From: a virus
Length of the DNA: 28,650 nt
IMG/VR virus record: IMGVR_UViG_3300010885_020133
Span: 1-28,650 of that record
Reading direction: 5' to 3' (one strand)
Position numbers and translations under genes: made by a program. The notes under the pieces were generated by a model that had not been told where the DNA came from, did no database searches, and saw only the letters and a list, made by a program, of their open reading frames with translations. Below are positions 1-27,461 of the stretch, piece by piece. Within the stretch, counting starts at the first letter, position 1; each line of letters opens with the position of its first letter.

Positions 1-2
1 TG

Positions 3-89
3 GGCACCGCTCCAATCTATTTGACTGGGAAAGGAAATAGTATCAGTGAAAACTATATTCTTGGGAACAACTTAAAGGTTTATCACTAA
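3..89 (+). CDS. C-terminal fragment of an unidentified protein (5' end outside window)
   Basis: Reading the + strand from base 3 gives an open frame of 28 residues starting GTAPIYLTGKGN and ending NNLKVYH before a TAA at 87-89. The other two forward frames stop within the first 50 bases. The composition looks protein-like, and the next downstream gene is also on the + strand, so this may be the end of an upstream gene. The fragment is too short to recognise a family, and an open frame of this length can occur by chance. Confidence 0.35.
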   Translation, partial: GTAPIYLTGKGNSISENYILGNNLKVYH

Positions 90-246
90 CCTCTCATACC
101 ATCTTCTCCCTTTGTGCTGATGTTGACCTATGTATGAATCCCGTAGTAAGTCAGAAATTATAGATGCTACTGTTTATCTCCCTCCATCTATACAAATAAA
201 TATAATGAACTTTAGAAAAATCATCAAGTCCATATATTTATTTTAT

Positions 247-678
247 ATGGAAAAAGAATGTAAGATTTGTAAAGTAACAAAACCTCTTAAAGAATATTTC
301 AGTTGTCAGAAATGTGGGGATGGTCATCTTGGAATCTGCAAGGTATGCAAGAAGTCAGGTAAAACCATCAGAGATATGAATCCAAAGAAGCAACCCAAAT
401 TCAACAGAATGTGGTCAAATTTTGACGATAATTTCATGAAGATGAAAGTAGTCACGAAGGATGATTATCGTTCAATGTACGAGTTCCTAAAGGGTTGTGG
501 TTATGATGTATCAAAAGATATTCATCAGCAGTTTATTGATAAGTGGAATGCAACCTCAAATAAGAAACCATTGAAGTATAAAGATAGGGGAAGCAACTCA
601 ATCAATTCTTATTTATGGAACGGTGAAATAAATCCTGCAAACAAAAGATTTAAGGCAAAAGAAAACCCCACCGATTAA
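247..678 (+). CDS. Small putative zinc-binding protein with three CxxC motifs
   Basis: This encodes 143 aa if translation starts at the ATG at 247. In-frame ATGs at 130 and 205 would add 39 or 14 residues, but the extra sequence has no protein-like pattern. The N-terminus has three CxxC pairs (C5/C8, C20/C23, C31/C34 from the 247 start), spaced as in small phage zinc-ribbon proteins that look like degenerate HNH-type knuckles. I see no HNH catalytic histidines, so nuclease activity should not be assumed. The rest is basic and rich in Lys, Asn and Trp, which could suit nucleic-acid binding. It is the only complete + strand gene here and faces the - strand small-gene region, with a terminator hairpin over its 3' end. 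A weak TATATTTA box lies about 10 bp before the start. The specific function is unknown. Confidence 0.6.
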   Translation: MEKECKICKVTKPLKEYFSCQKCGDGHLGICKVCKKSGKTIRDMNPKKQPKFNRMWSNFDDNFMKMKVVTKDDYRSMYEFLKGCGYDVSKDIHQQFIDKWNATSNKKPLKYKDRGSNSINSYLWNGEINPANKRFKAKENPTD

Positions 679-687
679 GGATGGGGT
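655..687 (-). terminator. Rho-independent terminator, - strand, between convergent genes
   Basis: ACCCC (665-669) pairs with GGGGT (683-687), and CC (671-672) with GG (679-680), around a 6-nt loop, with a small A versus AT bulge. On the - strand the stem is followed by TTTTCTTTT. It lies just past the stop of the 708-1106 gene and overlaps the 3' end of the + strand gene. On the + strand the stem is followed only by a pyrimidine stretch, so termination in that direction would be weaker. Confidence 0.65.
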
Positions 688-707
688 CTCTCTATATTTA
701 CTACGGG

Positions 708-1106
708 TTATAGTCCTTTGATTGCTTTTAACATCCATAACACTGCGTAGATTCCGATGATTACACCAACCACTGTTGGCCATACAGAACCTTTTGCCTT
801 AACAGATTTAACTCTCTCTAACTCTGTGTTTGCTTCAGCAACTTGGTCCTTGATTTGAGATTTCAGAATCTTGTACTCGTTCTCTGTGATTGTACCAGCC
901 TTGTAGTAACCTTCTGTCTCATCATCAATCTTAACAAGACCTTCAAGGATTCCCTCATACTTGGTGATTAACTCTTGTTGTTTCTTACTGAAAGAAACTG
1001 TCTCTACTGACTTCTGTGATTGACGAGGTGATGTCACAGCATTTGCGGCTTTACGACCAAGTGTTAAACCGAAACCTCTTACGATTGAATTTGTTAATGT
1101 ACCCAT
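708..1106 (-). CDS. Small membrane protein with a SHOCT-like motif
   Basis: This 132-aa protein has a basic Gly/Arg-rich N-terminus (GFGLTLGRKAAN), a central helical and charged region, and one strong hydrophobic segment near the C-terminus (about residues 108-128, PTVVGVIIGIYAVLWML) followed by a short Lys tail. Around residue 68 the stretch YKAGTITENEYKILKSQI resembles the SHOCT short helical motif (G-x-I-T-x-x-E-[FY]-x-x-L/K), which is often found at the ends of membrane or stress proteins. A single C-terminal membrane anchor with a cytoplasmic coiled region is the most likely topology. It is the last gene of the - strand set before a terminator, and its start has the same ACACTATG context as four small genes upstream. 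The SHOCT assignment comes from pattern reading only; a role in lysis or host-membrane modification is speculative. Confidence 0.7.
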   Translation of the reverse strand: MGTLTNSIVRGFGLTLGRKAANAVTSPRQSQKSVETVSFSKKQQELITKYEGILEGLVKIDDETEGYYKAGTITENEYKILKSQIKDQVAEANTELERVKSVKAKGSVWPTVVGVIIGIYAVLWMLKAIKGL

Positions 1107-1159
1107 AGTGTTTGATGTTCAGTAATGCTGTCCCCCTATTTTATTGTTAAAATATATAA

Positions 1160-1393
1160 TTAAAAATCTATGTTGTTAATAACTTCAGGTGTATCTAATT
1201 GAGAAACCATATAGTCATCAACTTTTTCTGCGTCTGTTTCAAGGTCTATGTAAAGTTGGATAAGTTCTTCTTGATTTTCATCAATTTCTAAACTTTCTAA
1301 TTGTGATACATACTTGTCATAAACCTCATCTGTGACATCAAAAACTTGTACTTGTTCACAATAAACTGTGGATGTAATTGTAATCTGTTTCAT
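1160..1393 (-). CDS. Small, strongly acidic hypothetical protein
   Basis: This 77-aa protein is not recognised. By hand count it has 20 Asp/Glu and only 3 Lys/Arg, so it should be strongly negative. The first 20 residues look like a beta strand (MKQITITSTVYCEQVQVFDV), followed by an amphipathic acidic helical region. Size and charge resemble small phage proteins that mimic DNA or bind host enzymes, but no motif supports a particular target. The start ATG follows the shared leader ending AAAACACT, with a TTACTTTG promoter-like box 17-24 bp upstream, so it may be transcribed independently of the next gene up. Confidence 0.7.
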   Translation of the reverse strand: MKQITITSTVYCEQVQVFDVTDEVYDKYVSQLESLEIDENQEELIQLYIDLETDAEKVDDYMVSQLDTPEVINNIDF

Positions 1394-1409
1394 AGTGTTT
1401 TATTTTTTA

Positions 1410-1441
1410 CAAAGTAAGTTAATTATTCTGAATCCACCAAA
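1410..1441 (-). promoter_or_regulatory. Bacteroidota-type promoter-like element for the 1160-1393 gene
   Basis: On the - strand, TTACTTTG (1410-1417) matches the Bacteroidota -7 consensus TAnnTTTG except for one base, and TTTG (1438-1441) lies 20 bp upstream as a possible -33 element. The stretch between the box and the ATG (TAAAAAATAAAACACT) is the same leader found at other small genes here. It overlaps the end of the upstream coding region. Confidence 0.45.
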
Positions 1442-1662
1442 TCTTTGTGGATACATTCTGCAAGGTCATATTCACTCAATTCAAAATAAGCGGACATGAA
1501 ATCCAAGTTGTAATCTTCATCTGAAACCTCATCTAATTCTGTGTCATTTATCACAAAATTTATGATGTTCATAATTGATTCTTCAGAAAGTTCAAATCCA
1601 AAGCTAGATTCGTATCTCCCGATACAGTATCCTGATAAGTGTAATTTAAGTTGATTTGTCAT
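1423..1662 (-). CDS. Small, strongly acidic hypothetical protein
   Basis: This 79-aa protein has 19 Asp/Glu and 3 Lys/Arg by hand count. Acidic residues concentrate in the second half (DTELDEVSDEDYNLD and onwards), while the first third is mixed (LHLSGYCIGRYESSFGF). There is no signal peptide, membrane segment or cysteine pair. The start lies 6 nt after the stop of the upstream 84-aa gene and lacks a clear TAnnTTTG box (TTACACCG is at the equivalent place), so it is probably co-transcribed and translationally coupled with that gene. I do not recognise a family. Confidence 0.7.
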   Translation of the reverse strand: MTNQLKLHLSGYCIGRYESSFGFELSEESIMNIINFVINDTELDEVSDEDYNLDFMSAYFELSEYDLAECIHKDLVDSE

Positions 1663-1668
1663 GGTCTG

Positions 1669-1923
1669 TTATTTTTTATCGGTGTAACAATCGTTTGTAG
1701 TGTAATCTGACATAGCGGCAACTCCAACTATTGAATAGTAAGTTTTATCATCACCTAACCAATCAATGAAATTGATTTCTCTCTTTTGACAATCAACCTC
1801 AACTGCTGAACCATCGTCAAAATACCAGAAGACAGAATAGTTTTGCTCACTGTGGATTGATTCATTTAAGAATACTGAAACTCGGGATATAACCCATACA
1901 TCTAATTTGTTTTTCATTTTCAT
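1669..1923 (-). CDS. Small hypothetical protein
   Basis: This 84-aa protein starts MKMKNKLDVWVISR. It is rich in aromatic residues (VFWYFDDG, INFIDWLGDD), suggesting a compact beta-rich fold, and ends in a short charged tail (CYTDKK). A second in-frame ATG two codons downstream is possible. A perfect TACCTTTG box is 17-24 bp upstream of the start. It probably forms a two-gene unit with the 79-aa gene that follows after 6 nt. No family is recognised. Confidence 0.7.
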   Translation of the reverse strand: MKMKNKLDVWVISRVSVFLNESIHSEQNYSVFWYFDDGSAVEVDCQKREINFIDWLGDDKTYYSIVGVAAMSDYTTNDCYTDKK

Positions 1924-1939
1924 AATGTGTGATTTTTTA

Positions 1940-1947
1940 CAAAGGTA
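1940..1947 (-). promoter_or_regulatory. TAnnTTTG -7 box for the 1669-1923 gene
   Basis: TACCTTTG on the - strand fits the Bacteroidota -7 consensus exactly and lies inside the repeated leader cassette (TTCCTTACCTTTGTAAAAAA, then a short AT-rich stretch to the ATG). I see no convincing TTG or TTTG at -33, so it is a partial match. Confidence 0.5.
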
Positions 1948-1952
1948 AGGAA

Positions 1953-2261
1953 TTAGTTTGAAAGTGTGAGAAAATTATTTAATTTTTTTCCATCTACTTT
2001 GTAGGTATATGGACGACCCAAGAAGTAATCTAATGTACCCATTTCAGATTCAACTGCAACTAACTTAGCATCTTCATAGACATCTACTAATACTTTGTCA
2101 GGATTTACCCCAACATTCAAACAGTTTTGTTTGTCATCCAATAAAATGTTTTCTACTTCCATAAGACCAAACTTCTCAATCAGTGTTTGGAAATCTGCGG
2201 TTGACATAATCTGATTGATGTCACCTGTTTTGTACTTGAATGTAATTACTAAATTTTCCAT
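1953..2261 (-). CDS. Small hypothetical protein
   Basis: This 102-aa protein starts MENLVITFKYKTGDINQIM. Alternating hydrophobic and polar residues suggest a mixed alpha/beta fold, and it is moderately acidic (about 16 Asp/Glu to 10 Lys/Arg). There is no membrane segment. It has its own promoter cassette with TACCTTTG and TTTG spaced 19 bp apart, the best of the internal promoters, so it may be well expressed. No family is recognised; an accessory or host-takeover role is only inferred from context. Confidence 0.7.
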   Translation of the reverse strand: MENLVITFKYKTGDINQIMSTADFQTLIEKFGLMEVENILLDDKQNCLNVGVNPDKVLVDVYEDAKLVAVESEMGTLDYFLGRPYTYKVDGKKLNNFLTLSN

Positions 2262-2277
2262 AGTGTTTTATTTTTTA

Positions 2278-2308
2278 CAAAGGTAAGGAATTATATATAC
2301 TCTACAAA
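2278..2308 (-). promoter_or_regulatory. Bacteroidota-type promoter (-33 TTTG, 19 bp, TACCTTTG) for the 1953-2261 gene
   Basis: TACCTTTG (2278-2285) matches TAnnTTTG exactly, and TTTG (2305-2308) is 19 bp upstream, the same spacing as in the promoter at 2870-2900. The -33 element lies inside the 3' end of the preceding gene. The 16-nt stretch between box and ATG (TAAAAAATAAAACACT) is identical to that of the 1160-1393 gene. Confidence 0.65.
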
Positions 2309-2560
2309 ATAAACTTCGTTCTCATCCCAAAAATCACAGAAAATATCATAAGAATTTTCAGGGTTGGTCATAATCTTGAAGTCAGGACAATCCTCAATCT
2401 TATAGTCATAATGCTCTTCATCAGTCAATTCTATGACTTGATTGATTAACTCCTCTAATACTTCAGAAGTTAATACTGTATCTGTTCTACCTGCGATTGA
2501 GATACATAGATAAGAAAACAACATATGTTGTCCGTAGTTTAATCTTGTTATAGTTTCCAT
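2291..2560 (-). CDS. Small, strongly acidic hypothetical protein
   Basis: This 89-aa protein has 20 Asp/Glu and 4 Lys/Arg by hand count. The N-terminal 25 residues are hydrophobic and aromatic (GQHMLFSYLCISIAG); the rest is acidic and aromatic (DEEHYDYKIEDCPDF, CDFWDENEVYFVEY). The hydrophobic stretch is short and broken by polar residues, so it is more likely a buried helix than a membrane span. The leader before the ATG (AATTAAAACACT) belongs to the shared cassette, but the box is degenerate (TAACTTCG at 2577-2584), so transcription may rely mainly on the stronger promoter upstream at 2870-2900. No family is recognised. Confidence 0.7.
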   Translation of the reverse strand: METITRLNYGQHMLFSYLCISIAGRTDTVLTSEVLEELINQVIELTDEEHYDYKIEDCPDFKIMTNPENSYDIFCDFWDENEVYFVEYI

Positions 2561-2573
2561 AGTGTTTTAATTT

Positions 2574-2843
2574 TTACGAAGTTACTAAATTATTTTGAAT
2601 ATTCTTAATGAAACCATCAATTTTTTTATTGATTGATTTGCGAGATTCACCATTCAATTCCAAGTAAGTACAAAGAGCGGCAACAGCGTTATTCCATGTC
2701 TTAATGGGTAATTCACATAGAACCTCCTCACCAGCATTTGGAATCCAAAACTGAGCCTGCATATCACCATTGTCAGGAGAATAAAATAATAAATTAATTT
2801 GAGGACCTTTGATTTCTAAACCTTCTAATCGTTCAATGTTCAT
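2574..2843 (-). CDS. Small hypothetical protein, first gene of the small-gene cluster
   Basis: This 89-aa protein starts MNIERLEGLEIKGPQINLLF. It has a likely beta-rich first half (FYSPDNGDMQAQFWIPNAGE) and a helical, Lys/Asn-rich C-terminus. It is roughly neutral, unlike several neighbours. It is the first gene after a strong strand-specific terminator and has the best promoter in the region, so it probably leads a transcript that includes the following genes. Its stop codon lies within the leader of the next gene. No family is recognised. Confidence 0.7.
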   Translation of the reverse strand: MNIERLEGLEIKGPQINLLFYSPDNGDMQAQFWIPNAGEEVLCELPIKTWNNAVAALCTYLELNGESRKSINKKIDGFIKNIQNNLVTS

Positions 2844-2869
2844 AGTGTATATTTTTTATTTGTGTCCCA

Positions 2870-2900
2870 CAAAGATACGGAGAATAAAATTACTGGCAAA
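2870..2900 (-). promoter_or_regulatory. Bacteroidota-type promoter (-33 TTTG, 19 bp, TATCTTTG) for the small-gene cluster
   Basis: On the - strand, TTTG (2897-2900) is followed after 19 bp by TATCTTTG (2870-2877), an exact match to TAnnTTTG. The start codon of the first cluster gene is 27 nt further on. The promoter lies just after a Rho-independent terminator, as expected for a new transcription unit. Confidence 0.7.
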
Positions 2901-2910
2901 ATATTTTATA

Positions 2911-2945
2911 AAATAAAAAACCCCCATCATAGAGAATGACAGGGG
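2911..2945 (-). terminator. Rho-independent terminator, - strand specific
   Basis: The - strand RNA can form a 10-bp stem (CCCCUGUCAU with AUGAUGGGGG, two G-U pairs) around a UCUCU loop, followed by TTTTTTATTT. The two wobble pairs become A-C mismatches in + strand RNA, so the element favours the - strand. It ends the unit whose last gene is at 2998-3216. Confidence 0.85.
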
Positions 2946-2947
2946 TG

Positions 2948-2980
2948 GGTGAGGAAAATAATGGCAGTAACAACCTCACC
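2948..2980 (-). other. 3'-UTR hairpin with a GCCATT..TATTTT-type loop (copy A)
   Basis: GGTGAGG and CCTCACC arms (2948-2954 / 2974-2980) enclose a 19-nt loop. On the - strand the element reads GTGAGG, then TACTGCCATTATTTT. A related arrangement occurs at 3887-3949 (GTGAGG, then TACGCCATTGTTATTTTT). Each lies between the last stop codon of a transcription unit and its terminator, suggesting a shared 3'-UTR or small-RNA element. The function is unknown. Confidence 0.45.
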
Positions 2981-2997
2981 ACTTATATGCTAGAGAA

Positions 2998-3216
2998 TTA
3001 TTTTTTCATCTTAGATTTTGCAGTATCAATATGATTCTGCATCTTCTCAAATCGTGTTAATACTTCTTTGGTTGGACCTTTGGTTGCAAAGTCAACCATC
3101 ACATCTGTTGCTAATGCAATTTCTAATAAGGTTGGGCAGAACCCACATGCTTCAAAATATTTTTGAACAAGGTGTGATTGGTTCTGAAAAATGATTGTTT
3201 CTTCTTTAGTTCTCAT
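2998..3216 (-). CDS. Small hypothetical phage protein
   Basis: This 72-aa, Lys-rich, mostly helical protein contains HLVQKYFEACGFCPTLLEIA followed by an amphipathic helix (EVLTRFEKMQNHIDTAKSKM). The CGFCPT stretch places two cysteines three residues apart; a single CxxC is not enough to claim metal binding. Its start overlaps the end of the 59-aa gene upstream by 11 nt, so the two are probably translationally coupled. It is the last gene before the terminator at 2911-2945. The family is unnamed to me. Confidence 0.7.
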   Translation of the reverse strand: MRTKEETIIFQNQSHLVQKYFEACGFCPTLLEIALATDVMVDFATKGPTKEVLTRFEKMQNHIDTAKSKMKK

Positions 3217-3385
3217 TGTCGTAATCTATTGGGGTTATATCTATTATGTTGTCTTGTCTTATTGCGTCCCATATTCTAATCCAATCCTCTTCGGATGCTG
3301 GTCTTGAATATAGAACCTCATTTGTTTCACCATGTCTCACAGTGATTGTGTCTCTCACATAAGTTATTTGAATGGATGCTGCCAT
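3206..3385 (-). CDS. 59-aa hypothetical protein
   Basis: Reading from the ATG at 3385 gives 59 residues: MAASIQITYVRDTITVRHGE, then a charged helical region (ASEEDWIRIWDAIRQDN) ending DYDNEN. The pattern looks protein-like: two beta strands followed by an amphipathic helix with two Trp. The stop overlaps the start of the next gene by 11 nt, a sign of coupling. This fills what would otherwise be a coding gap between 3216 and 3404. No family is recognised. Confidence 0.65.
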   Translation of the reverse strand: MAASIQITYVRDTITVRHGETNEVLYSRPASEEDWIRIWDAIRQDNIIDITPIDYDNEN

Positions 3386-3403
3386 GTCTACAAATTTAAT
3401 ATT

Positions 3404-3556
3404 TTATTTTGAATCTGCCAACATTTCTTCGTATGCCGCGTACTCTGCTTCTAATTGTCTTTCTCTAACTGTTTTGTAATCAATGTCAAAGTCATCTGGA
3501 AATACATAGTTTTCCTCTAATAATAAATCGTCTAATAATTTTTTAATCTGTCCCAT
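3404..3556 (-). CDS. 50-aa acidic hypothetical protein
   Basis: Reading from the ATG at 3556 gives 50 residues, MGQIKKLLDDLLLEENYVFP and then an acidic helical second half ending YEEMLADSK. It is probably almost entirely alpha-helical. It starts 11 nt after the stop of the 66-aa gene and ends 18 nt before the next start, so it fits a four-gene unit. No function can be suggested. Confidence 0.6.
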   Translation of the reverse strand: MGQIKKLLDDLLLEENYVFPDDFDIDYKTVRERQLEAEYAAYEEMLADSK

Positions 3557-3567
3557 TTTTTTCTTTT

Positions 3568-3768
3568 TTATTTTTTAGTTATTGTAACATTACCCATGTC
3601 TAAAGACCACATAGAACCACCTTCTACCCATTTATTAACTTGATAAATAATTTCTTTGGTACTGAAATATTCATTCCAATTACGGATAGTTAATTTAATT
3701 TGGTCAGCGGTTGATACGATTACTGTTTCTAATGTATCAAAGTTTGTGATTTCGTATGATGTTGTCAT
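3568..3768 (-). CDS. 66-aa hypothetical protein, first gene of a four-gene unit
   Basis: The sequence MTTSYEITNFDTLETVIVST is followed by a helix with Trp (IKLTIRNWNEYF) and a beta-like end (GSMWSLDMGNVTITKK). The soluble, mixed fold is not recognised. A sigma70-like promoter sits about 22-50 bp upstream, and a terminator lies beyond that, so this gene appears to begin a separate transcript that continues through the 50-, 59- and 72-aa genes. Confidence 0.65.
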   Translation of the reverse strand: MTTSYEITNFDTLETVIVSTADQIKLTIRNWNEYFSTKEIIYQVNKWVEGGSMWSLDMGNVTITKK

Positions 3769-3789
3769 GTCCTATTGTTTTATATATAA

Positions 3790-3818
3790 AGTATAGGTGT
3801 AGGTGGGTATAGTGTCAA
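3790..3818 (-). promoter_or_regulatory. Sigma70-like promoter TTGACA-N17-TATACT
   Basis: On the - strand, TTGACA (3813-3818) is a perfect -35 box and TATACT (3790-3795) a five-of-six -10 box, with the optimal 17-bp spacer. It lies directly after a terminator and about 22 bp before the 66-aa gene. It does not match TAnnTTTG, unlike the promoters further left, so it may belong to a different expression class. Confidence 0.6.
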
Positions 3819-3827
3819 GCAAATAAT

Positions 3828-3862
3828 AAAAAAAAGTCAGATTTTTTTAGAACCTGACTTTT
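3828..3862 (-). terminator. Rho-independent terminator after the late gene block
   Basis: AAAAGTCAG and CTGACTTTT (3832-3840 / 3854-3862) form a perfect 9-bp stem around a 13-nt loop. On the - strand it is followed by an uninterrupted run of T continuing into TTATTATTTG. The stem is A/U-flanked, so it could also work in the other direction. It ends the long virion gene block whose last gene is 3989-4966. Confidence 0.85.
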
Positions 3863-3886
3863 AACACATAACGATTTATAAGAAAT

Positions 3887-3949
3887 GAGGGGGCTACTTA
3901 AACAATAGATTAAAATGGGAGTAAAAATAACAATGGCGTAGCACCCCTC
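3887..3949 (-). other. 3'-UTR hairpin with a GCCATT..TATTTT-type loop (copy B)
   Basis: GAGGGGGCTAC (3887-3897) pairs with GTAGC-A-CCCCTC (3938-3949): 11 bp with a single bulged A, enclosing a loop of about 40 nt. On the - strand the upstream arm is followed by GCCATTGTTATTTTTAC, resembling the loop at 2948-2980. It lies between the stop of the 325-aa gene and the terminator at 3828-3862. No coding sequence is seen between 3863 and 3988. Confidence 0.5.
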
Positions 3950-3988
3950 ACAATACTAAATATAATAATAGTATCTTGGTAATCAATA

Positions 3989-4966
3989 TTAATTTGTTAT
4001 TGGACCACCAACAACCCACGCATCACAGGTACGACTTGCGGCACATTTGAAATCATATGCTTCACAATATCCCAAATCCCCTGCTTTGATTGAATCATAT
4101 GGGTCATTACCCACATCACCCAATCCTTGAGCGATGCAATCTAAAATTTCTTTTGTCTGAACGAAGAATGAACAGTTTCCACAACGAGCCTTTTTTGCTT
4201 CATCAGGTGTGGTATTAAACTGGTCTGCTTTTTTTTTCCAATAATCTTCATTAGGAAGATTCGGGTCTAATGGACCGTAGTTTGCTTGGTCAATACACTT
4301 CTGTCTATTTTCAATATTTGTAGGGATGTCTAAAGTTGCTGGTGGACATTCAGCCATCGCAACTGCAACAGGTGCTCCAACAACTGCTGGATTAGAACCA
4401 CCTGATGGTTGTACCACTACTGAAGCGGCACATCTTTTTCTGGCTTCTTCACGAGTTAAAGACGGTTCTTCTTTTAATCTTTTGGCTACACAATCACCAA
4501 TGTTTGTATCCATGTTTTCCATTGCAACAGGTTCAACAATTAACTCACCCATACATAATGAATAGGCTTCCTTGTAATCTTTACCAGCAGCCTTGTAATT
4601 GGACATACAACCCTCAAATTTCACATCAGGATGGTCCTCTGAACCAAACTCCTCAAGACGAGACCAGTACTTGTAATAAGCGTTAAATGCGTTCATACAA
4701 CTATTCAATCTCTCCTTCATGTTAGGGTATTGTGATTTCATCTTTGTATGTGATGAACATCTGCTGATATAAGAACCTCTGTTCTCCGCCTTCTTTGGGG
4801 TAAGAACAAATACTTCTTCTGTTTCTTTACTCATGTTTCTATTTTTTATTTTTTCGTAACAAATAGCAAGTGCCTGTTCTGATGGATATTCATCTGATAT
4901 TGCTTTCTTACATCTTGGTAAGAAGTCATCGGCTTTCTCCCCTTTTTCTGGTGTTGGAATTGGCAT
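3989..4966 (-). CDS. Cys-rich phage protein with repeated RC..CY-type motifs and a C-terminal Cys cluster
   Basis: This 325-aa protein is modular. The N-terminus has the motif MPIPTPEKGEKADDFLPRC, and a related unit follows at about 51-70 (FVLTPKKAENRGSYISRC); units like these recur in phage structural polyproteins. Further cysteines are spread through residues 85-230. The last about 70 residues form a compact cluster (RCGNCSFF, DCIAQGLGD, LGYCEAYDFKCAASRTCDAW, VGGPI). Its C-x2-C ... C ... C ... C ... C spacing resembles a domain in marine and Bacteroidota phage proteins that may bind Fe-S or zinc, somewhat like high-potential iron-sulfur proteins. A Pro/Val/Ala-rich linker separates the halves. 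Its start overlaps the upstream stop by one base (TAATG). It is the last gene of the late block. It is probably virion-associated or an assembly factor; the metal assignment is inference. Confidence 0.65.
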   Translation of the reverse strand: MPIPTPEKGEKADDFLPRCKKAISDEYPSEQALAICYEKIKNRNMSKETEEVFVLTPKKAENRGSYISRCSSHTKMKSQYPNMKERLNSCMNAFNAYYKYWSRLEEFGSEDHPDVKFEGCMSNYKAAGKDYKEAYSLCMGELIVEPVAMENMDTNIGDCVAKRLKEEPSLTREEARKRCAASVVVQPSGGSNPAVVGAPVAVAMAECPPATLDIPTNIENRQKCIDQANYGPLDPNLPNEDYWKKKADQFNTTPDEAKKARCGNCSFFVQTKEILDCIAQGLGDVGNDPYDSIKAGDLGYCEAYDFKCAASRTCDAWVVGGPITN

Positions 4967-5343
4967 TAGTATTTAAGTGTTAAAAGGTATAATGTGTGGT
5001 TCACATGACCCAAGATTTCATCTCTCTTATTTAAGAGGTCTGTATCTCTAACAGGGTCTAAGGCTTTTGATAATTGGAATAAGAAATCCTTGAACTGTGC
5101 AAGGTATACTTTACTATCCATTGTGTTTGGATTGTCAAACTCAATTGAGAATGTCTCACCAAACTCTGGTCTACCGTACTCTGGTTTTCCAATCATTGTC
5201 TCAACAAAGTCATCAATTGAATCATCTAATAGTTCATATAGTTCACCAAGTGCTCTATGAATTGCATCACCATAAGTTGCCCAATGGTTGAATCTAATCT
5301 GTGTTTGACAGTGAACAAAATGTAGTATTATTTCTTCTTTCAT
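4966..5343 (-). CDS. Helical His/Asp/Glu-rich protein, possibly ferritin-like (DUF5856-type)
   Basis: This 125-aa protein appears to be all helical. It contains FVHCQTQIRFNHWATYGDAI, then HRALGELYELLDDSIDDFVE and G, and ends with DEILGHVNHTLYLLTLKY. The regular placement of His, Asp and Glu along several helices (H..T..R..H....Y..AI..AL...Y....D..VE) is typical of small ferritin-like or Dps-like four-helix bundles, and I associate it with the phage and algal-virus family DUF5856. I see no definite di-iron site, so the biochemical role is open. It overlaps both neighbours by one base, so its expression is coupled to the late block. Confidence 0.6.
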   Translation of the reverse strand: MKEEIILHFVHCQTQIRFNHWATYGDAIHRALGELYELLDDSIDDFVETMIGKPEYGRPEFGETFSIEFDNPNTMDSKVYLAQFKDFLFQLSKALDPVRDTDLLNKRDEILGHVNHTLYLLTLKY

Positions 5344-14656: not shown

Positions 14657-15838
14657 TTAATTACAACAATCTACAAAAGTACAGTTTACCTGTGCACCAG
14701 TACCAGGAGGTTGAGACCATGCTTGATATGATGGTGAATTACCGACTCCAACAAATACCTTTGGTTTATATTTAGAATAAGGGAATGTACAATCATATGT
14801 TTGACAGTAATACCAATCTATTTGTAAAGGTGACACTGATTTGATTTTAGCCGTACCTGTTCTTGAACAAGAGAATCCATTGTCACTCCAAATCTCACAA
14901 TCATATTGATAATAAACAGGTGTTTTTGTTGGGGTAGGTGTTTGTGTTTTTGTTGCTGTATTAGTAGGTGTTTGTGTATTTGTTGCCGTATTACTTGGAG
15001 TTTGAGTATTAGTTGGTGTTACAGTTGGAGTCACACTTGATGTTGGAGTTGGTGATGCTCCAGGAATTGGAAAACCACACCAAAATATTTGATATTGTCC
15101 ACCACCAACTATATTAACTACTTGTTGACTTGGAACATAAATACCTTGATTTAATGTCCAATTTGGATTTATATTTGTTCTACCAAGATTGGCTGGTTGG
15201 ATATAACCACATACTTCTAAATTAGTATATCCTGATGTTAATAAACAAGCCCCTTGACCTGCTTGACCTTGATTCAAAGCCATGATATAACCTGTTACTC
15301 CACTAAACATTGCATATGGTAAACCAGTTTGTGGTAAATTAGCACATTCAGTTTGGAAAGGTGTTGGATTAGTAACATCCCAATATCTTGGAGTATTATC
15401 CACTTTATAATAAAATCCAACATAAGATTGATAAGTTGCACTTGCATCACTTGAAGCACTAAAATATAAACAATCCGCAACAAAATTAGGTGTCATTGTT
15501 GGAGTTACACTTGGGGTTGCAGTATTGGTAGGTGTTTGTGTATTTGTTGCTGTGTTAGTAGGTGTTTGTGTGGTAGTTAAAGTTGTTGTAGTTGTAGGTG
15601 TTTGTGTGTTAGTTGGAGTTACTGTCGGGGTTGGTGTTGGGGCAATAATCAATGTTTCACAACAAGAGTTGTAAGCACTATAACATAATTGATATAGACC
15701 ATAAGGATAATCTAAATCAACGGTGTAAGGTATTATGTGTGAGCCTAAACTAAAAGTTCCACCTGTTTGTGCTCTAAATTCTATATCGGCAATTAAACCC
15801 GTATAGTTTGGTGATGATAATATTACTTGTGTACCCAT
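14657..15838 (-). CDS. Adhesin-like virion protein with Thr-Pro linkers and Cys-rich domains
   Basis: This 393-aa protein has an N-terminal domain (1-65, MGTQVILSSPNYTGLIADIE, FSLGSHIIPYTVDLDYPYGL, NSCCETLII) of a type common in Bacteroidota phage tail proteins. A Thr-Pro linker follows (about 67-117, TPTNTQTP-like), then a second globular domain (118-260) with several Cys and Tyr, another linker (262-307), and a C-terminal Cys-rich domain (308-393, YDCEIWSDNGFSCSRTG, WYYCQTYDCTFPYSKYKPKV, ending DCCN). Ordered domains joined by extended Thr-Pro stalks are typical of surface fibres and adhesins. No signal peptide is seen. The gene lies 10 nt after the next adhesin gene. Receptor binding is inferred from architecture; no known ligand-binding motif is seen. 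Confidence 0.6.
   Translation of the reverse strand: MGTQVILSSPNYTGLIADIEFRAQTGGTFSLGSHIIPYTVDLDYPYGLYQLCYSAYNSCCETLIIAPTPTPTVTPTNTQTPTTTTTLTTTQTPTNTATNTQTPTNTATPSVTPTMTPNFVADCLYFSASSDASATYQSYVGFYYKVDNTPRYWDVTNPTPFQTECANLPQTGLPYAMFSGVTGYIMALNQGQAGQGACLLTSGYTNLEVCGYIQPANLGRTNINPNWTLNQGIYVPSQQVVNIVGGGQYQIFWCGFPIPGASPTPTSSVTPTVTPTNTQTPSNTATNTQTPTNTATKTQTPTPTKTPVYYQYDCEIWSDNGFSCSRTGTAKIKSVSPLQIDWYYCQTYDCTFPYSKYKPKVFVGVGNSPSYQAWSQPPGTGAQVNCTFVDCCN
14918..15055 (-). repeat. Thr-Pro repeat-coding tract (393-aa protein, linker 2)
   Basis: The tract codes for residues about 262-307, with repeated TPTNTQTP and TATKTQTP units. On the + strand it reads as repeated GTTGGTGTT/GTAGGTGTT-type hexamers, like those at the other Thr-Pro tracts. 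Confidence 0.85.
15488..15640 (-). repeat. Thr-Pro repeat-coding tract (393-aa protein, linker 1)
   Basis: The tract codes for residues about 67-117, with [24 protein letters not shown] and TNTATPSVTPT units. It uses the same vocabulary as the linkers in the neighbouring genes. Confidence 0.85.
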
Positions 15839-15848
15839 AATTTAATTT

Positions 15849-18362
15849 TTACCAACTTGAATAATTCCATTTAGTTTGTAAGTAATTTTCTACTTGAAGA
15901 ATTTGAGATGGTGTTAATACACTATTGTATACAATTACTTCATAGATAGTTCCCTGAGTATCCGCAGAAATATCACTCATTCTAACCCCTCTCATATTCG
16001 CTCCATAACTAAATGTACCTGATGTTGATGATGGAGTTGTTCCGTTTATTGTTCCACCAGCATTACTTGTATATCCACTTATAATCATTAATGATTTAGG
16101 ATATTTAGTTCTTGATGTCCAACTAGCAAATTGTACTTTACCACCGACAACTCTACCTTCAATTACATCAACATTTGTATATTGTGATGAAATACCCTCA
16201 CCATTAGTTGTATCAATTTGGAACTCTAATGCGTTTATATCGTTTGGAGCGTATGATACTATAAATGTTGTATTACCTGATGGTGTTGTTCCTGATGTTG
16301 TACCAGAAAGGTTTATACCTGAACCAGAGAATGTAACACCAGAGAATGGTAATCCATTAGCTCCCGCAACTAATTGTGGTTGTAATGTTGTTCCTGTCTG
16401 TGTTAATATACTTCCTGTTCTACCACTCCAAGTTGTAACATAAGTTTTACCTGCAGATACTCTTGTTGAATAAGTTGAACCTGATGATGCATCAAACCAT
16501 TGGAATAGTGTTGGTATTCTTGCTGGTGAGAATGGTAAGTTTGTCGGTGTAACAGTTGGGGTTGTTGTTGGGTTAGGTGTTCTTGTTGGAGTAGGCGTAT
16601 TAGTTGCAGTTTTAGTCGGAGTTTGTGTTTGAGTTGAGGTTGGGGTTAATGTATTAGTTGGAGTTGGACTTGGTGTTGGTCCCCAGTTAGAATAATTCCA
16701 TTTAGTTTTCAAATAGTTTTCTACATTTGCAATTTCAGTTGAAGTTAATGTTCTATTGTAAACAACAATTTCATAAATCGTACCTTGAGAGTCAGCAGAA
16801 ACATCACTCATTTTAATGTTGGTCATATTGCCACCATAAGTAAATGTACCCGATGTTGATGACGGTACAATACCATTTATTGAACCTCCTCCATTTGATG
16901 TTCCACCACTTACAATCATTAACGATTTAGGGTAATACTGATTTGATGACCATGAACCCCATGATATTTTTCTACCCGCTGTTCTACCTTCAATTACATC
17001 AAAATTCACATATTGAGATGAAATACCTTCACCATTACTAGTATCAATTTGGAATTGTAATGCATTAGCCTCATTAGGTGCGTATGAAACAACAAAGGTA
17101 GTATTTCCCGATGGGGTTGTTCCCGTTGTTGTTCCTGTTAGGTTAATTCCTGTTCCAATAAATGTAACACCAGAGAACGGTAATCCATTAACTCCTTGTA
17201 CTAATTGAGGTTGTAAAGAAGTATTTGGTTGATTAACTATTTGTCCTGTTCTACCTGTCCAAGAAGTAACATAAGTAAATGGCGCAGATACTCTTGTTGA
17301 ATAAGTTGTTCCACTTGAAGCGTCAAACCATACATATAAATCAGCAATTCTTGCTGGTGAGAATGGTAATAATGTTTCTGTTGGTGATGGTGTTAAAGTT
17401 TGAGTTGGTGTATTAGTAGGTGTTGGAGTTCTTGTGGATGTATTAGTTGGTGTTGGAGTTCTTGTGGCTGTATTAGTTGGCGTAGCAGTATTAGTTGATG
17501 TATTAGTTGGTGTTTGTGTTGATGTATTGGTTGGAGTAACAGTTGATGTTGCCGTTGGTGTTGGCGTTTGTAAAATATCATAATTAACATCACAACTTGG
17601 TGCTGGCGTTTGAGTTGGCGTTTGAGTAGTTGTAGAAGTATTCGTTGGTGTTTGAGTTGGTGTAGCTGTTAATGTTGTTGTTGGCGTTGGTGTAGGAGTA
17701 CTAGTTTCAGTTGATGTATTAGTAGGCGTTTGTGTTTGAGTTGAAGTGTTAGTAGGTGTATTAGTAGGCGTTTGTGTTTGAGTTGAAGTATTAGTAGGTG
17801 TATTAGTTGGTGTAACTGTTGGTGTTGGTGTAAATAATAAACAATTTGTTACTGGTGGTGTATAAATAATCCAATCAGGAAAAACAGTTGGTGTACAATT
17901 ACTTGTTCCACACGCATCATGTAATACTTTCGCATAAACAAATTCAGTTGATTTTTGCCCATCAGGAATAACAACAGTTTCAAAATCAGTTCCATTACTC
18001 ACCACAAATGATAAGTCAGGATGTGATGATACTATTATACCTTGAATAGTCGCATAAAATCTAAATACACCATAAACATTAAAAACAGTTGAACCATTCG
18101 GACAAGAGAATGCAATACTGTTGTATGTAAATGATGAAAAATAACAATACTCATAAGGAGTTGTTGTTGGAGTTGGGGTTACAGCAAGGCATGAACCAGA
18201 AATAACCAAACCACACTCATTGAGTAAAGGTAAATCATCATTAAAACAAATTGATTGACCAAGAGTTAAAGTATAATATGCTTCCGTACCTGAACAGGTA
18301 GTCCCTGAAATATATTTGCTTCCACCCGTTGGGTCATTGTGAACATATAAATTACAACTCAT
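15849..18362 (-). CDS. Adhesin-like protein with tandem LamG/concanavalin-like domains and Thr-Pro linkers
   Basis: This 837-aa protein has a small Cys-containing N-terminal domain (1-60), a second domain (70-175) and then long Thr-Pro linkers at about 177-254 and 266-332. Two nearly parallel copies of a beta-sandwich domain follow (333-560 and 609-837), each beginning FSPARI and containing [44 protein letters not shown] and GTIYE..VYN..LT, and ending YL.TKWNYS.W. The domain belongs to the LamG/concanavalin A-like group, as in many secreted adhesins and phage host-binding proteins. A Thr-Pro linker (561-608) separates the copies. It is probably a distal tail or surface-exposed protein that binds polysaccharide; the ligand is unknown. 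Confidence 0.75.
15852..16535 (-). repeat. LamG-like domain duplication, copy 2
   Basis: This codes for residues about 610-837 of the 837-aa protein and aligns along its length with copy 1 at 16683-17366. Most conserved are the opening FSPARI..L..WFDASSG and the closing E..L..KWNYS-W. The copies differ at many positions, so the duplication is not very recent. Confidence 0.85.
16539..16682 (-). repeat. Thr-Pro repeat-coding tract between the LamG-like copies
   Basis: The tract codes for residues about 561-608 ([20 protein letters not shown] and following). It is the spacer joining the two domain copies. Confidence 0.85.
16683..17366 (-). repeat. LamG-like domain duplication, copy 1
   Basis: This codes for residues about 333-560 of the 837-aa protein and is the partner of 15852-16535. 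Confidence 0.85.
17367..17834 (-). repeat. Long Thr-Pro repeat-coding tracts (837-aa protein)
   Basis: Two tracts code for residues about 177-254 and 266-332, separated by the short [13 protein letters not shown]. Units such as [19 protein letters not shown] and [15 protein letters not shown] recur. A direct duplication of [14 protein letters not shown] is visible within the first tract, suggesting expansion by slippage or unequal recombination. Confidence 0.9.
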
Positions 18363-25334: not shown

Positions 25335-27461
25335 TTATATTGTATTCCATACACCTGTTTCGTTATTCCAATTTGTTGAATTAGTATTCCATTTCTGATT
25401 TGCAGGTCTCGTAACACTTGGTGTTGGTGTTGATGTCGGTGTTCCTGCTGGTCTTGTTGGAGACGGAGTTGGAGTATTTGTTCCTGTTTGTGTATTGGTA
25501 GGAGTTTGAGTTTGTGTCTGTGTATTTGTTGGCGTAGGTGTTGGAGTTCCACTCGCTGTTTGTGTAGGAGTAGAAGTTAATGTTGTAGTTGGAGTTGTTG
25601 TTTGTGTAGGAGTTTGAGTTGGGGTTGGTGTACTTGTTTCTGTACTTGTTGGAGTAGCAGTTAATGTTGTTGTAGTTGTTGGCGTAGGTGTACTTGTCTC
25701 CGTATTTGTTGGAGTCATTGTAGGTGTCTCGCTTGGGGTTTGAGTTGGTGTTTCTGTATTTGTTGGTGTAGGCGTAGCAGTTGATGTCTCCGTATTAGTT
25801 GGAGTCATTGTAGGTGTATTACTTGGTGTTTGTGTATTTGTATTTGTTGGTGTCTGTGTAGGTGTTCCTGTATTTGTAGGTGTAACAGATGCTGTCGGTG
25901 TAATAGTAGGAGTAACAGTAGGAGTTGGAGTTGAGAATGAATCAAATGCTGCATCACATCTGTTAAGAGGTGTCATCACTTGTATCTTAAACTCTGCTGT
26001 CCATCCCCCTAACAAGTCATCATACTTTTCTAAGAATGGAACACATACTGTTGGTGTATCCAAATAGTATTCGTTATTGAAATTACCTAATGAATCAGTC
26101 ACAGATAATCTGAACTGACCGATAATATCATCCATGATTTGATTGGTGTCAGATAGAACATCAATCTGATTGGCTAAATCTCTTTCAATAATATCAGCAA
26201 CAATAACGGTGAATGAATAAACCATATCACCAAAGTTCTGTTCAACCTCACCAGGAACAACATACATCAATGGATAGATTGGGGCATTGAATGAAGTGTT
26301 TTCTTCTTTGTCTCTTGATTCGGTCCAATAGGTAAAGTCCTCAACTGAACCAAACCCAAATGAGTTCAATTGTTTGTGGTGGTCTGCAAGTAATCTAAAG
26401 TCATCATGGAATGTCTTGAAGTTAATACCTGCAAGATGTTGAATAGGTGTACCAGTGAATGGTTCGTAGGCAGCAGAACATCTATCTAAAGATGTCATTG
26501 TCTTAATCTTGAATAGACCATTCCAACCGTTTAATAAGTCATCCATCTTTTCAAGGAATGGGGTACATACAACAGCATCATCAAGATAGTATCTGTCATT
26601 ATAGTTCCCCAAATCTTTTGTTACAGACAATCTAAATTGAGATATTACATCCTGTAAGATTTGTAGTGTATCTGAACTGATGTCAACTTGGTTTGCCAAA
26701 TCTCTTTCAAGTATGTCTGATACAATCACATTCATATTCCATGTCTTGTATCTCAAATCATTGTCAACTTGAGATGGAACAACATATAACAATGGATAGT
26801 ATGGAGCATTGAATGAGGTATTATCTTCTCTGTCTCTTTGTTGTGTCCAATAAGATAATTGATTCACATCCCCCAATCCAAATGAATTAAGTTGTTTGTG
26901 AAGGTTGGCTAATTTTGAAAAGTCATCAGCAACAGATTTGAAGTTAATCTGTTTCGGTGTTGAACTTGGGGTTGGTGATGGTGGTATTGGTGTGGCAGTA
27001 GGAGTTGGACTTAAACCTGGTGTTAAAGTTGGAGTGGGTGTTTGTGTTGGAGTTTTTGTTGGTGTAGGGGTCTCTGTATTAGTTGGAGTGTTTGTCGGTG
27101 TCTCTGTGTTTGTAGGAGTTACAGATGGTGTTACTGCTGCTCCTGTTGCAGTAGGTGTTGGAGTTGGTTGAACATTACAACCATTGAATCCTCCACCTTG
27201 AGGAAATCCACCAATAACATACCAAGTAGCATAATTATTTGGTTGCATTTCATTTGAATAGTATCCATCACCAACAGGGATTGTTAAACCAGCATCAGCA
27301 AACAATTGTTGAGATGTTGTAATACAAGGCCAACAAGTTAGAGGTAAACATGGGTCACACTGACCTGGTGCCACATCAGCATAGATAAGAAAATATGGAC
27401 CAATTTCACATGCATCATTTTGTGTTGATGCTGAAGAAACCAAAAATGATATTACACTCAT
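25335..27461 (-). CDS. Modular virion protein with duplicated central domain and Thr-Pro tails
   Basis: This 708-aa protein has an N-terminal Cys-containing domain (about 1-97; [38 protein letters not shown]), a Thr-Pro linker (97-170), then two related copies of an about 165-residue domain (173-335 and 347-510). Both copies carry [39 protein letters not shown]...LGN and PFLEK.DDLL.GW...FKI. A long Thr-Pro tract follows (511-690), ending with [19 protein letters not shown]. The duplicated domain resembles a phage protein of Bacteroidota phages whose role I cannot name; it could be a tail or neck component. The gene starts inside the stop of the chaperone-like gene (ATGA). The combination of a small-domain protein with adhesin-like stalks is unusual. 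Confidence 0.65.
25392..25931 (-). repeat. Long Thr-Pro repeat-coding tract (708-aa protein, C-terminal)
   Basis: The tract codes for residues about 511-690, the longest in this window, with units such as [35 protein letters not shown] and [21 protein letters not shown] occurs twice. On the + strand it is dominated by GTTGGNGT-type hexamers. Confidence 0.9.
25932..26423 (-). repeat. Duplicated domain of the 708-aa protein, copy 2
   Basis: This codes for residues about 347-510 and aligns with 26457-26945 along its length ([20 protein letters not shown] against [20 protein letters not shown]). The duplication is old enough for many substitutions. Confidence 0.85.
26457..26945 (-). repeat. Duplicated domain of the 708-aa protein, copy 1
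   Basis: This codes for residues about 173-335 and is the partner of 25932-26423. Confidence 0.85.
26952..27173 (-). repeat. Thr-Pro repeat-coding tract (708-aa protein, N-terminal)
   Basis: The tract codes for residues about 97-170, with [19 protein letters not shown] and [13 protein letters not shown] units. On the + strand it is very rich in G and T. Confidence 0.88.

Follow-up and report, generated by a model that had tools for sequence, protein, structure and literature searches.

Putative host-type promoters repeated before unrelated small genes in an uncultured phage, probably of Bacteroidota

The material analysed here is a record of an uncultured virus, 28,650 bases of which form the stretch referred to below as the window, and all of the cassette features described lie on its minus strand. 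The structural genes occupy the minus strand too; at the right edge of the window there is a terminase-like C-terminal domain (Terminase_3C, Pfam), and 7411-6236 has a weak phage-portal match (Pfam). Proteins of the structural region, encoded within 14657-18362 and 25335-27461, carry long Thr-Pro repeats. Small genes intervene between the structural genes and the cassette unit, which occupies 2946-662, also on the minus strand, and has terminators at both ends (2946-2920 and 690-662). The features of the unit, together with one further box upstream of it, are given below, where genes are called by the position of their start and L-numbers denote contigs of relatives.

3391-3398, minus strand: sixth box, TAAATTTG, 22.5 bits, 5 nt before the 3385 gene and within the preceding operon
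2920-2946, minus strand: intrinsic terminator closing the upstream operon (11-pair stem, 5-nt loop, T-run), with the head promoter directly after it
2870-2901, minus strand: putative head promoter, TTTTG (2901-2897), 19 nt, box TATCTTTG (2877-2870)
2844-2869, minus strand: 26-nt stretch from box to ATG of the 2843 gene, predicted 22-nt 5' UTR
2574-2843, minus strand: small gene, 89 aa, homologues in L097 (57%) and L103 (42%)
2561-2584, minus strand: cassette 2, box TAACTTCG (2584-2577) and 16-nt leader TAAAAATTAAAACACT, 18.5 bits
2291-2560, minus strand: small gene, 89 aa, with a copy in L025 that is 94% identical in amino acids and has another leader
2262-2308, minus strand: cassette 3, TTTG (2308-2305), 19 nt, box TACCTTTG (2285-2278) and leader TAAAAAATAAAACACT, 29.2 bits
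1953-2261, minus strand: small gene, 102 aa, homologue search empty
1924-1947, minus strand: cassette 4, box TACCTTTG (1947-1940) and leader TAAAAAATCACACATT, 21.7 bits
1669-1923, minus strand: small gene, 84 aa, distant homologues in L099 and L057 with other leaders in front
1423-1678, minus strand: small gene (1662-1423) with partial leader TAAAAAATAACAGACC, which has 3 mismatches to the leader
1394-1417, minus strand: cassette 5, box TTACTTTG (1417-1410) and leader TAAAAAATAAAACACT, 21.3 bits
1160-1393, minus strand: small gene, 77 aa, homologue search empty
1107-1136, minus strand: a different, terminal leader, GGGGGACAG-N5-CTGAACATCAAACACT, without a box
708-1106, minus strand: last gene of the unit, 132 aa, homologues in L086, L025 and L101
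662-690, minus strand: intrinsic terminator at the unit's end, 11-pair stem and then a T-rich tail

No significant family was found for the small proteins of the window in PHROGs and Pfam, a peptide-pattern search for relatives of the 2843 protein confirmed none, an Rfam scan of positions 1-5000 gave no match, and the RNA folds of the leaders are not more stable than those of shuffles. The homologues of the 2843 gene in L097 and L103 occupy an internal position and have short leaders in front. Outside the unit, a convergent gene on the plus strand (130-678) with a CxxC...CxxC motif is found at the same place in many relatives, and the 3768 operon has a promoter of another class at 3818-3790, TTGACA-17-TATACT; in relatives, CTTGAC...TATAnTTT is conserved in front of the operon that corresponds to it.

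When TACCTTTGTAAAAAATAAAACACTATG was searched with up to 3 mismatches, it was found at four sites, which are the starts of the 1393, 1923, 2261 and 2560 genes, compared with zero in 100 dinucleotide shuffles, and these four starts are also where the members of a 45-nt direct-repeat family lie. A sequence-only reading of this DNA had placed a nearly identical leader before the 2843 gene as well; there, the leader is a longer one of a different type (26 nt). The shorter string ACACTATG has 5 copies, compared with 1.3 expected, and all are at gene starts (1106, 1393, 2261, 2560 and 2843), so that its reported presence at 1106 holds, although that gene, with a GGGGGACAG...CTGAACA leader and no box, does not belong to the cassette set. 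The claim that two genes have TTTG exactly 19 nt before TAnnTTTG is correct (2308-2278 and 2900-2870). Over the whole window, however, the strict pattern TTTG-N17-21-TAnnTTTG occurs 3 times against 1.9 expected, which is not above chance, and the case therefore rests on an extended model and on the relatives. A position model of the region from -26 to +8 relative to the box, built from relatives and not from the window, gives six matches in the window with 18.5-29.2 bits, all on the minus strand and 5-26 nt upstream of the start of an ORF, and the highest score after these is 9.9; 20 shuffles gave a mean of 0.3 sites with at least 14 bits, and one of them reached 20.1. All five genes that had been listed as having a cassette (1393, 1923, 2261, 2560 and 2843) are scored by the model, which adds the sixth site at 3398-3391, beyond the range then considered. 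This site is near-leaderless, and its counterpart in L065 has exactly 4 nt. No recognisable box precedes the 1662 gene, and the promoter model gives no match there.

Promoters of the primary sigma factor of Bacteroidota, sigma-ABfr, have the form TTTG / TAnnTTTG, with the box at -12 to -5 relative to the transcript start (PMC6847099, PMC9723704). In the window, TAnnTTTG is exact at 2877-2870, 2285-2278, 1947-1940 and 3398-3391 and has one mismatch at 2584-2577 and 1417-1410, and a -33 TTTG at about 19 nt is exact at two sites only, the others being degenerate, and weak at 1947 and 2584. Among 82 seed sites from the relatives and the window, selected on TAHHTTYG and a nearby ATG only, TTTTG emerges without having been selected at the -33 position of sigma-A promoters, and the fourth position of the box is C in 82%. 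Across relatives, the spacing from TTTG to box peaks at 19-20, with 25 and 22 cases against at most 8 at each other spacing. Box, -33 element, spacing and start-site geometry are the same as in sigma-ABfr promoters, as is translation without a Shine-Dalgarno sequence and with favourable A at -3, -6 and -12 (PMC6847099, PMC9723704). That the window sequences fit host sigma-A promoters of Bacteroidota (TTTG / TAnnTTTG, spacing 19-20) is well supported by sequence, and the same evidence favours the individual promoters proposed earlier for these genes. Unlike those promoters, the phage cassettes are repeated before single genes, and those of many relatives have an extended form that in host chromosomes is mainly found before tRNA genes. 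In four isolated Bacteroidota phages (P12024L, 6H, 11b and B124-14) no dense run of per-gene cassettes was found, although some single sigma-A-like sites before genes provide a likeness. Sigma-70 region 2, ERF, YqaJ and RecT were sought in the partial records of 14 relatives and none was found.

Relatives were gathered by searches with the capsid, the portal and the 4966 protein, which gave more than 150 contigs. The only named match of the portal is to the Nonlabens phages P12024, at 26% identity, and the major capsid protein has no relative in the named-phage collection or in bacterial genomes; the host is probably a member of the Bacteroidota. Pattern scans brought up the arrangement in other viral contigs as well, among them records of 97 and 109 kb, and in total at least three cassettes are present on each of 25 non-redundant uncultured contigs; the exact long leader has no match in viral contigs. 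The small genes that lie between the conserved 4966/3556 genes and the convergent 130-678 gene differ among the relatives, and most of them are likewise preceded by a promoter and leader of this type. The window shares its head promoter with L086, L099, L101, L103, L104, L107 and L108, yet the first genes after it have no detectable homology among the window and these 7 relatives; the order of terminator and then promoter is also found in relatives. Among 161 cassette genes there is no homologous pair within a contig (E <= 1e-3), and homologous genes in different phages often lie behind different leaders, although in some pairs promoter and gene have moved together. Thus gene and leader are only loosely linked, and the earlier suggestion that genes were copied together with their control region is not supported in that form.

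Two further observations concern the DNA near the cassettes of relatives. Immediately before the head promoter, L099 (14406), L104 (12795), L103 (12684) and L101 (8014) have an exact DnaA box, TGTGGATAA, which the window lacks; there are 40 such boxes in 1.53 Mb, compared with 11 for a letter-reversed control. In L103 (10432-12281) and L064 (13779-15628) the operon before the cassettes contains a DUF3440/PAPS-reductase gene followed by a ParB_N-like gene, an IbrA/IbrB-like pair.

The extended form of the promoter consists of TTTGGYAG..TCARAATAAT and the box. Many relatives carry it exactly, and the window copies are variants of it, the closest (1417-1410 and 3398-3391) having at least 2 mismatches by eye. 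Written as TTTGGYAGWNTCARAATAATNNNTAHCTTTG, it has one match in 257 billion bases of bacterial genomes, which is a Parabacteroides tRNA promoter, and 33 viral loci, some of which overlap on the same contig and several of which were fetched with a wider form of the pattern. A slightly wider form, with up to 3 mismatches allowed, has 21 chromosomal loci listed in Bacteroidota, and at 16 of the 21, by a hand count from coordinates, a tRNA gene follows within about 70 nt on the same strand; three of the five remaining loci are at contig ends. In Bacteroidota chromosomes, the extended promoter is thus nearly confined to the front of tRNA genes, a comparison that draws mainly on Parabacteroides and its family. 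When tRNA loci were drawn independently, 10 of 37 upstream regions have at least 10 bits with the phage model, compared with 21 in 257,309 other positions, and tRNA regions are at about thirty times the background rate. A scan of 198 genomes across the phylum gave no further matches at 2 mismatches, and hosts beyond the Parabacteroides family therefore seldom have the extended form.

We hypothesise that the unit is a set of individually promoted, exchangeable accessory genes in a phage probably of Bacteroidota, and we give this a probability of roughly three in four. The arrangement is best read as a new variant of a known theme of phage regulatory cassettes, in which the host-type promoter is itself ordinary and its use for exchangeable accessory genes is unusual. 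The host primary sigma factor would read the unit from the fixed head promoter (2900-2870) and from further promoters gene by gene, and since two genes of the unit (1662 and 1106) have no box, some read-through from upstream is likely. Each internal promoter would produce a very short, A-rich leader (a predicted 12-nt 5' UTR), with initiation that needs no Shine-Dalgarno sequence and has A at -3, -6 to -8 and -12. These promoters would be the stringent sigma-A consensus form that hosts use mainly for tRNA genes, and for that reason would probably be strong and active once the phage DNA enters. The repeats would supply short homologies for exchange, and with a start signal at every gene, whether brought along or already in place, unrelated genes could insert, leave or be swapped without breaking the operon. 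A more far-reaching version, to which we give rather less than an even chance, is that of a plug-in array, in which tRNA-type promoters with short or absent leaders serve both as start signals and as recombination seams, any frame joined at its ATG is expressed at once, and the wording of leaders is homogenised within a lineage by recombination between copies.

Convergence, that is independent selection for a sigma-A promoter and an A-rich start with no copying or exchange, would be compatible with the promoter part of this hypothesis and opposed to its exchange part. It would explain why all of the parts match known host rules and why tRNA promoters reach the same form. Leaders within the closest clade also agree with it, since their likeness is no greater inside one phage than from one phage to another (p = 0.32), so that phage-specific wording holds between lineages only. 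Against convergence, over all contigs the leaders of unrelated genes on the same contig have a likeness of 0.25 compared with 0.09 for those of unrelated genes on different contigs, which exceeds 2000 label shuffles, and there is wording specific to lineages, such as TAAACACACTTAAA in L215, L222 and L223. Sequence blocks also break at the elements. The 2560 gene and its copy in L025 are about 90% identical in DNA starting at the ATG and close to background upstream of it; at the other end the identity continues past the next promoter and ends in the leader there. With contig pairs counted in both directions, 19 of 46 ends of homologous blocks on the 5' side fall in a promoter or leader, where 4.6 would be expected, as do 27 of 60 on the 3' side, where 6.3 would be. 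On the 5' side the excess is found at other gene starts too (9 against 4.0, compared with 13 against 4.6 at cassettes), whereas on the 3' side only cassettes show it (27 against 6.2, compared with 5 against 5.1 at other gene starts). The excess on the 3' side is partly expected even with no recombination there, because like promoters may let alignments run on and then stop. Blocks that end at promoters suggest exchange at the repeats, part of which such carry-over of the alignment could explain, and we regard convergence as unlikely, if by no means negligible.

From the published position of the box, with which the transcript start of the 2843 gene was also predicted (PMC6847099, PMC9723704), a distance of 16 nt between box and ATG would give a 12-nt 5' UTR, AAAUAAAACACU, 26 nt would give 22, and 4 nt a leaderless mRNA. 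Distances in the 161 cassettes have a sharp peak at exactly 4 nt (21 cases on 14 contigs, not all independent, as some are homologous between contigs), with 0-3 cassettes at each neighbouring distance, and a broad range from 11 to 35. The 4-nt mode is as expected if transcription begins at the AUG itself, and thus if the promoter works. Contigs with boxes exactly 4 nt from the ATG are L192, L204, L205, L211, L219 and nine others, with examples such as TTTG-TGGT-ATG and TTTG-AACT-ATG, which predict runs of leaderless mRNAs. The frequency of A in 127 leaders is 0.79, 0.69 and 0.88 at -3, -6 and -12, and 0 of 29 starts in the window are Shine-Dalgarno-like, which agrees with the A-rich initiation suggested before; A-rich starts of a like kind, with no Shine-Dalgarno sequence, are known from Flavobacterium johnsoniae (PMC6847099).

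If the repeats were translation leaders only, one transcript would run from the 2870 head promoter and the boxes would be remnants or chance. This would be consistent with the ATG-proximal part being most alike among the window copies, with the chance-level count of strict promoter matches and with the boxless but leader-like start of the 1662 gene. However, a leader that acts in translation would not be expected to keep the -33 element, its spacing of 19-20, the C at the fourth position of the box or the 4-nt mode, all of which belong to transcription, and across phages it is the leader parts that vary and the box that is kept; we consider this explanation improbable.

The leaders could instead bind a regulator of the phage by which the whole set is switched on together, lineage wording then representing the specificities of regulators. 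The part between box and ATG is indeed worded by lineage, and the subcluster-specific inverted repeats of mycobacteriophage ESAS are an analogue (PMC3203893). A second shared leader before unrelated genes also agrees with a regulator. This leader, GGGGACAG-N-CTGAACA before the ATG, is found in the window (1136-1107) and in L086, L025, L101, L034, L097, L098 and L103; in relatives this type, the GGGGGACAG-type leader of the 1106 gene, precedes four unrelated gene families, mostly near the unit's end, and may be an operator or an RNA element. Yet the cassette leader, a low-complexity and A-rich sequence, shows no dyad, and PHROGs and Pfam revealed no regulator among the small genes of the window, so we think a common regulator a poor prospect. 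Tandem duplication of gene and promoter with later divergence of the coding part, although it would suit the similar gene sizes (77-102 aa) and the like leaders in a row, is rejected as highly improbable, as is a tandem gene array, given the lack of within-contig homologous pairs and the rows of leaders before clearly unrelated genes in relatives.

Repeated elements of related design, the promoter early stem-loops (PeSLs) of T4-type phages, have reportedly been described by Arbiol in 2010 and Comeau in 2014 (as cited in PMC4503421). PeSLs are repeated host-type promoters beside small variable genes and are thought to allow shuffling, with each promoter copy joined to a stem-loop terminator, in regions of high gene turnover of T4-type myoviruses. 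By comparison, the head element is PeSL-like in having a terminator and then a promoter, but the internal copies have no stem-loop, the head copy alone following a terminator. High turnover is shared, since the region between the conserved g4966/g3556 and p130 is variable. The phage type is unrelated, the portal matching the Nonlabens phages only, the sigma consensus is another one, and the cassette repeat includes the leader and ATG context. In cluster K mycobacteriophages, start-associated sequences (SAS) are short repeats upstream of the starts of many unrelated non-structural genes, with a 13-bp sequence, GGGATAGGAGCCC, that has a Shine-Dalgarno core before the ATG and a proposed role in translation (PMC3203893). 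The cassettes resemble SAS as short repeats before unrelated genes with lineage-specific variants of an extended form; they are not SAS, as they have a putative promoter in place of the Shine-Dalgarno core. An earlier description of such an arrangement in Bacteroidota phages was not found in the literature, our coverage of which was incomplete.

The hypothesis addresses the question of how orphan genes can be acquired and expressed by phages while operons stay intact. A promoter with its start context would mark each gene start and be conserved by position, not by the gene behind it. This may provide a simple signature for accessory genes, possibly for host takeover or anti-defence, in uncultured phages of Bacteroidota, as well as a set of candidates for strong promoters and for leaderless starts that Bacteroidota genetics could use, and it would offer a model, open to test, of how genes are exchanged at regulatory repeats.
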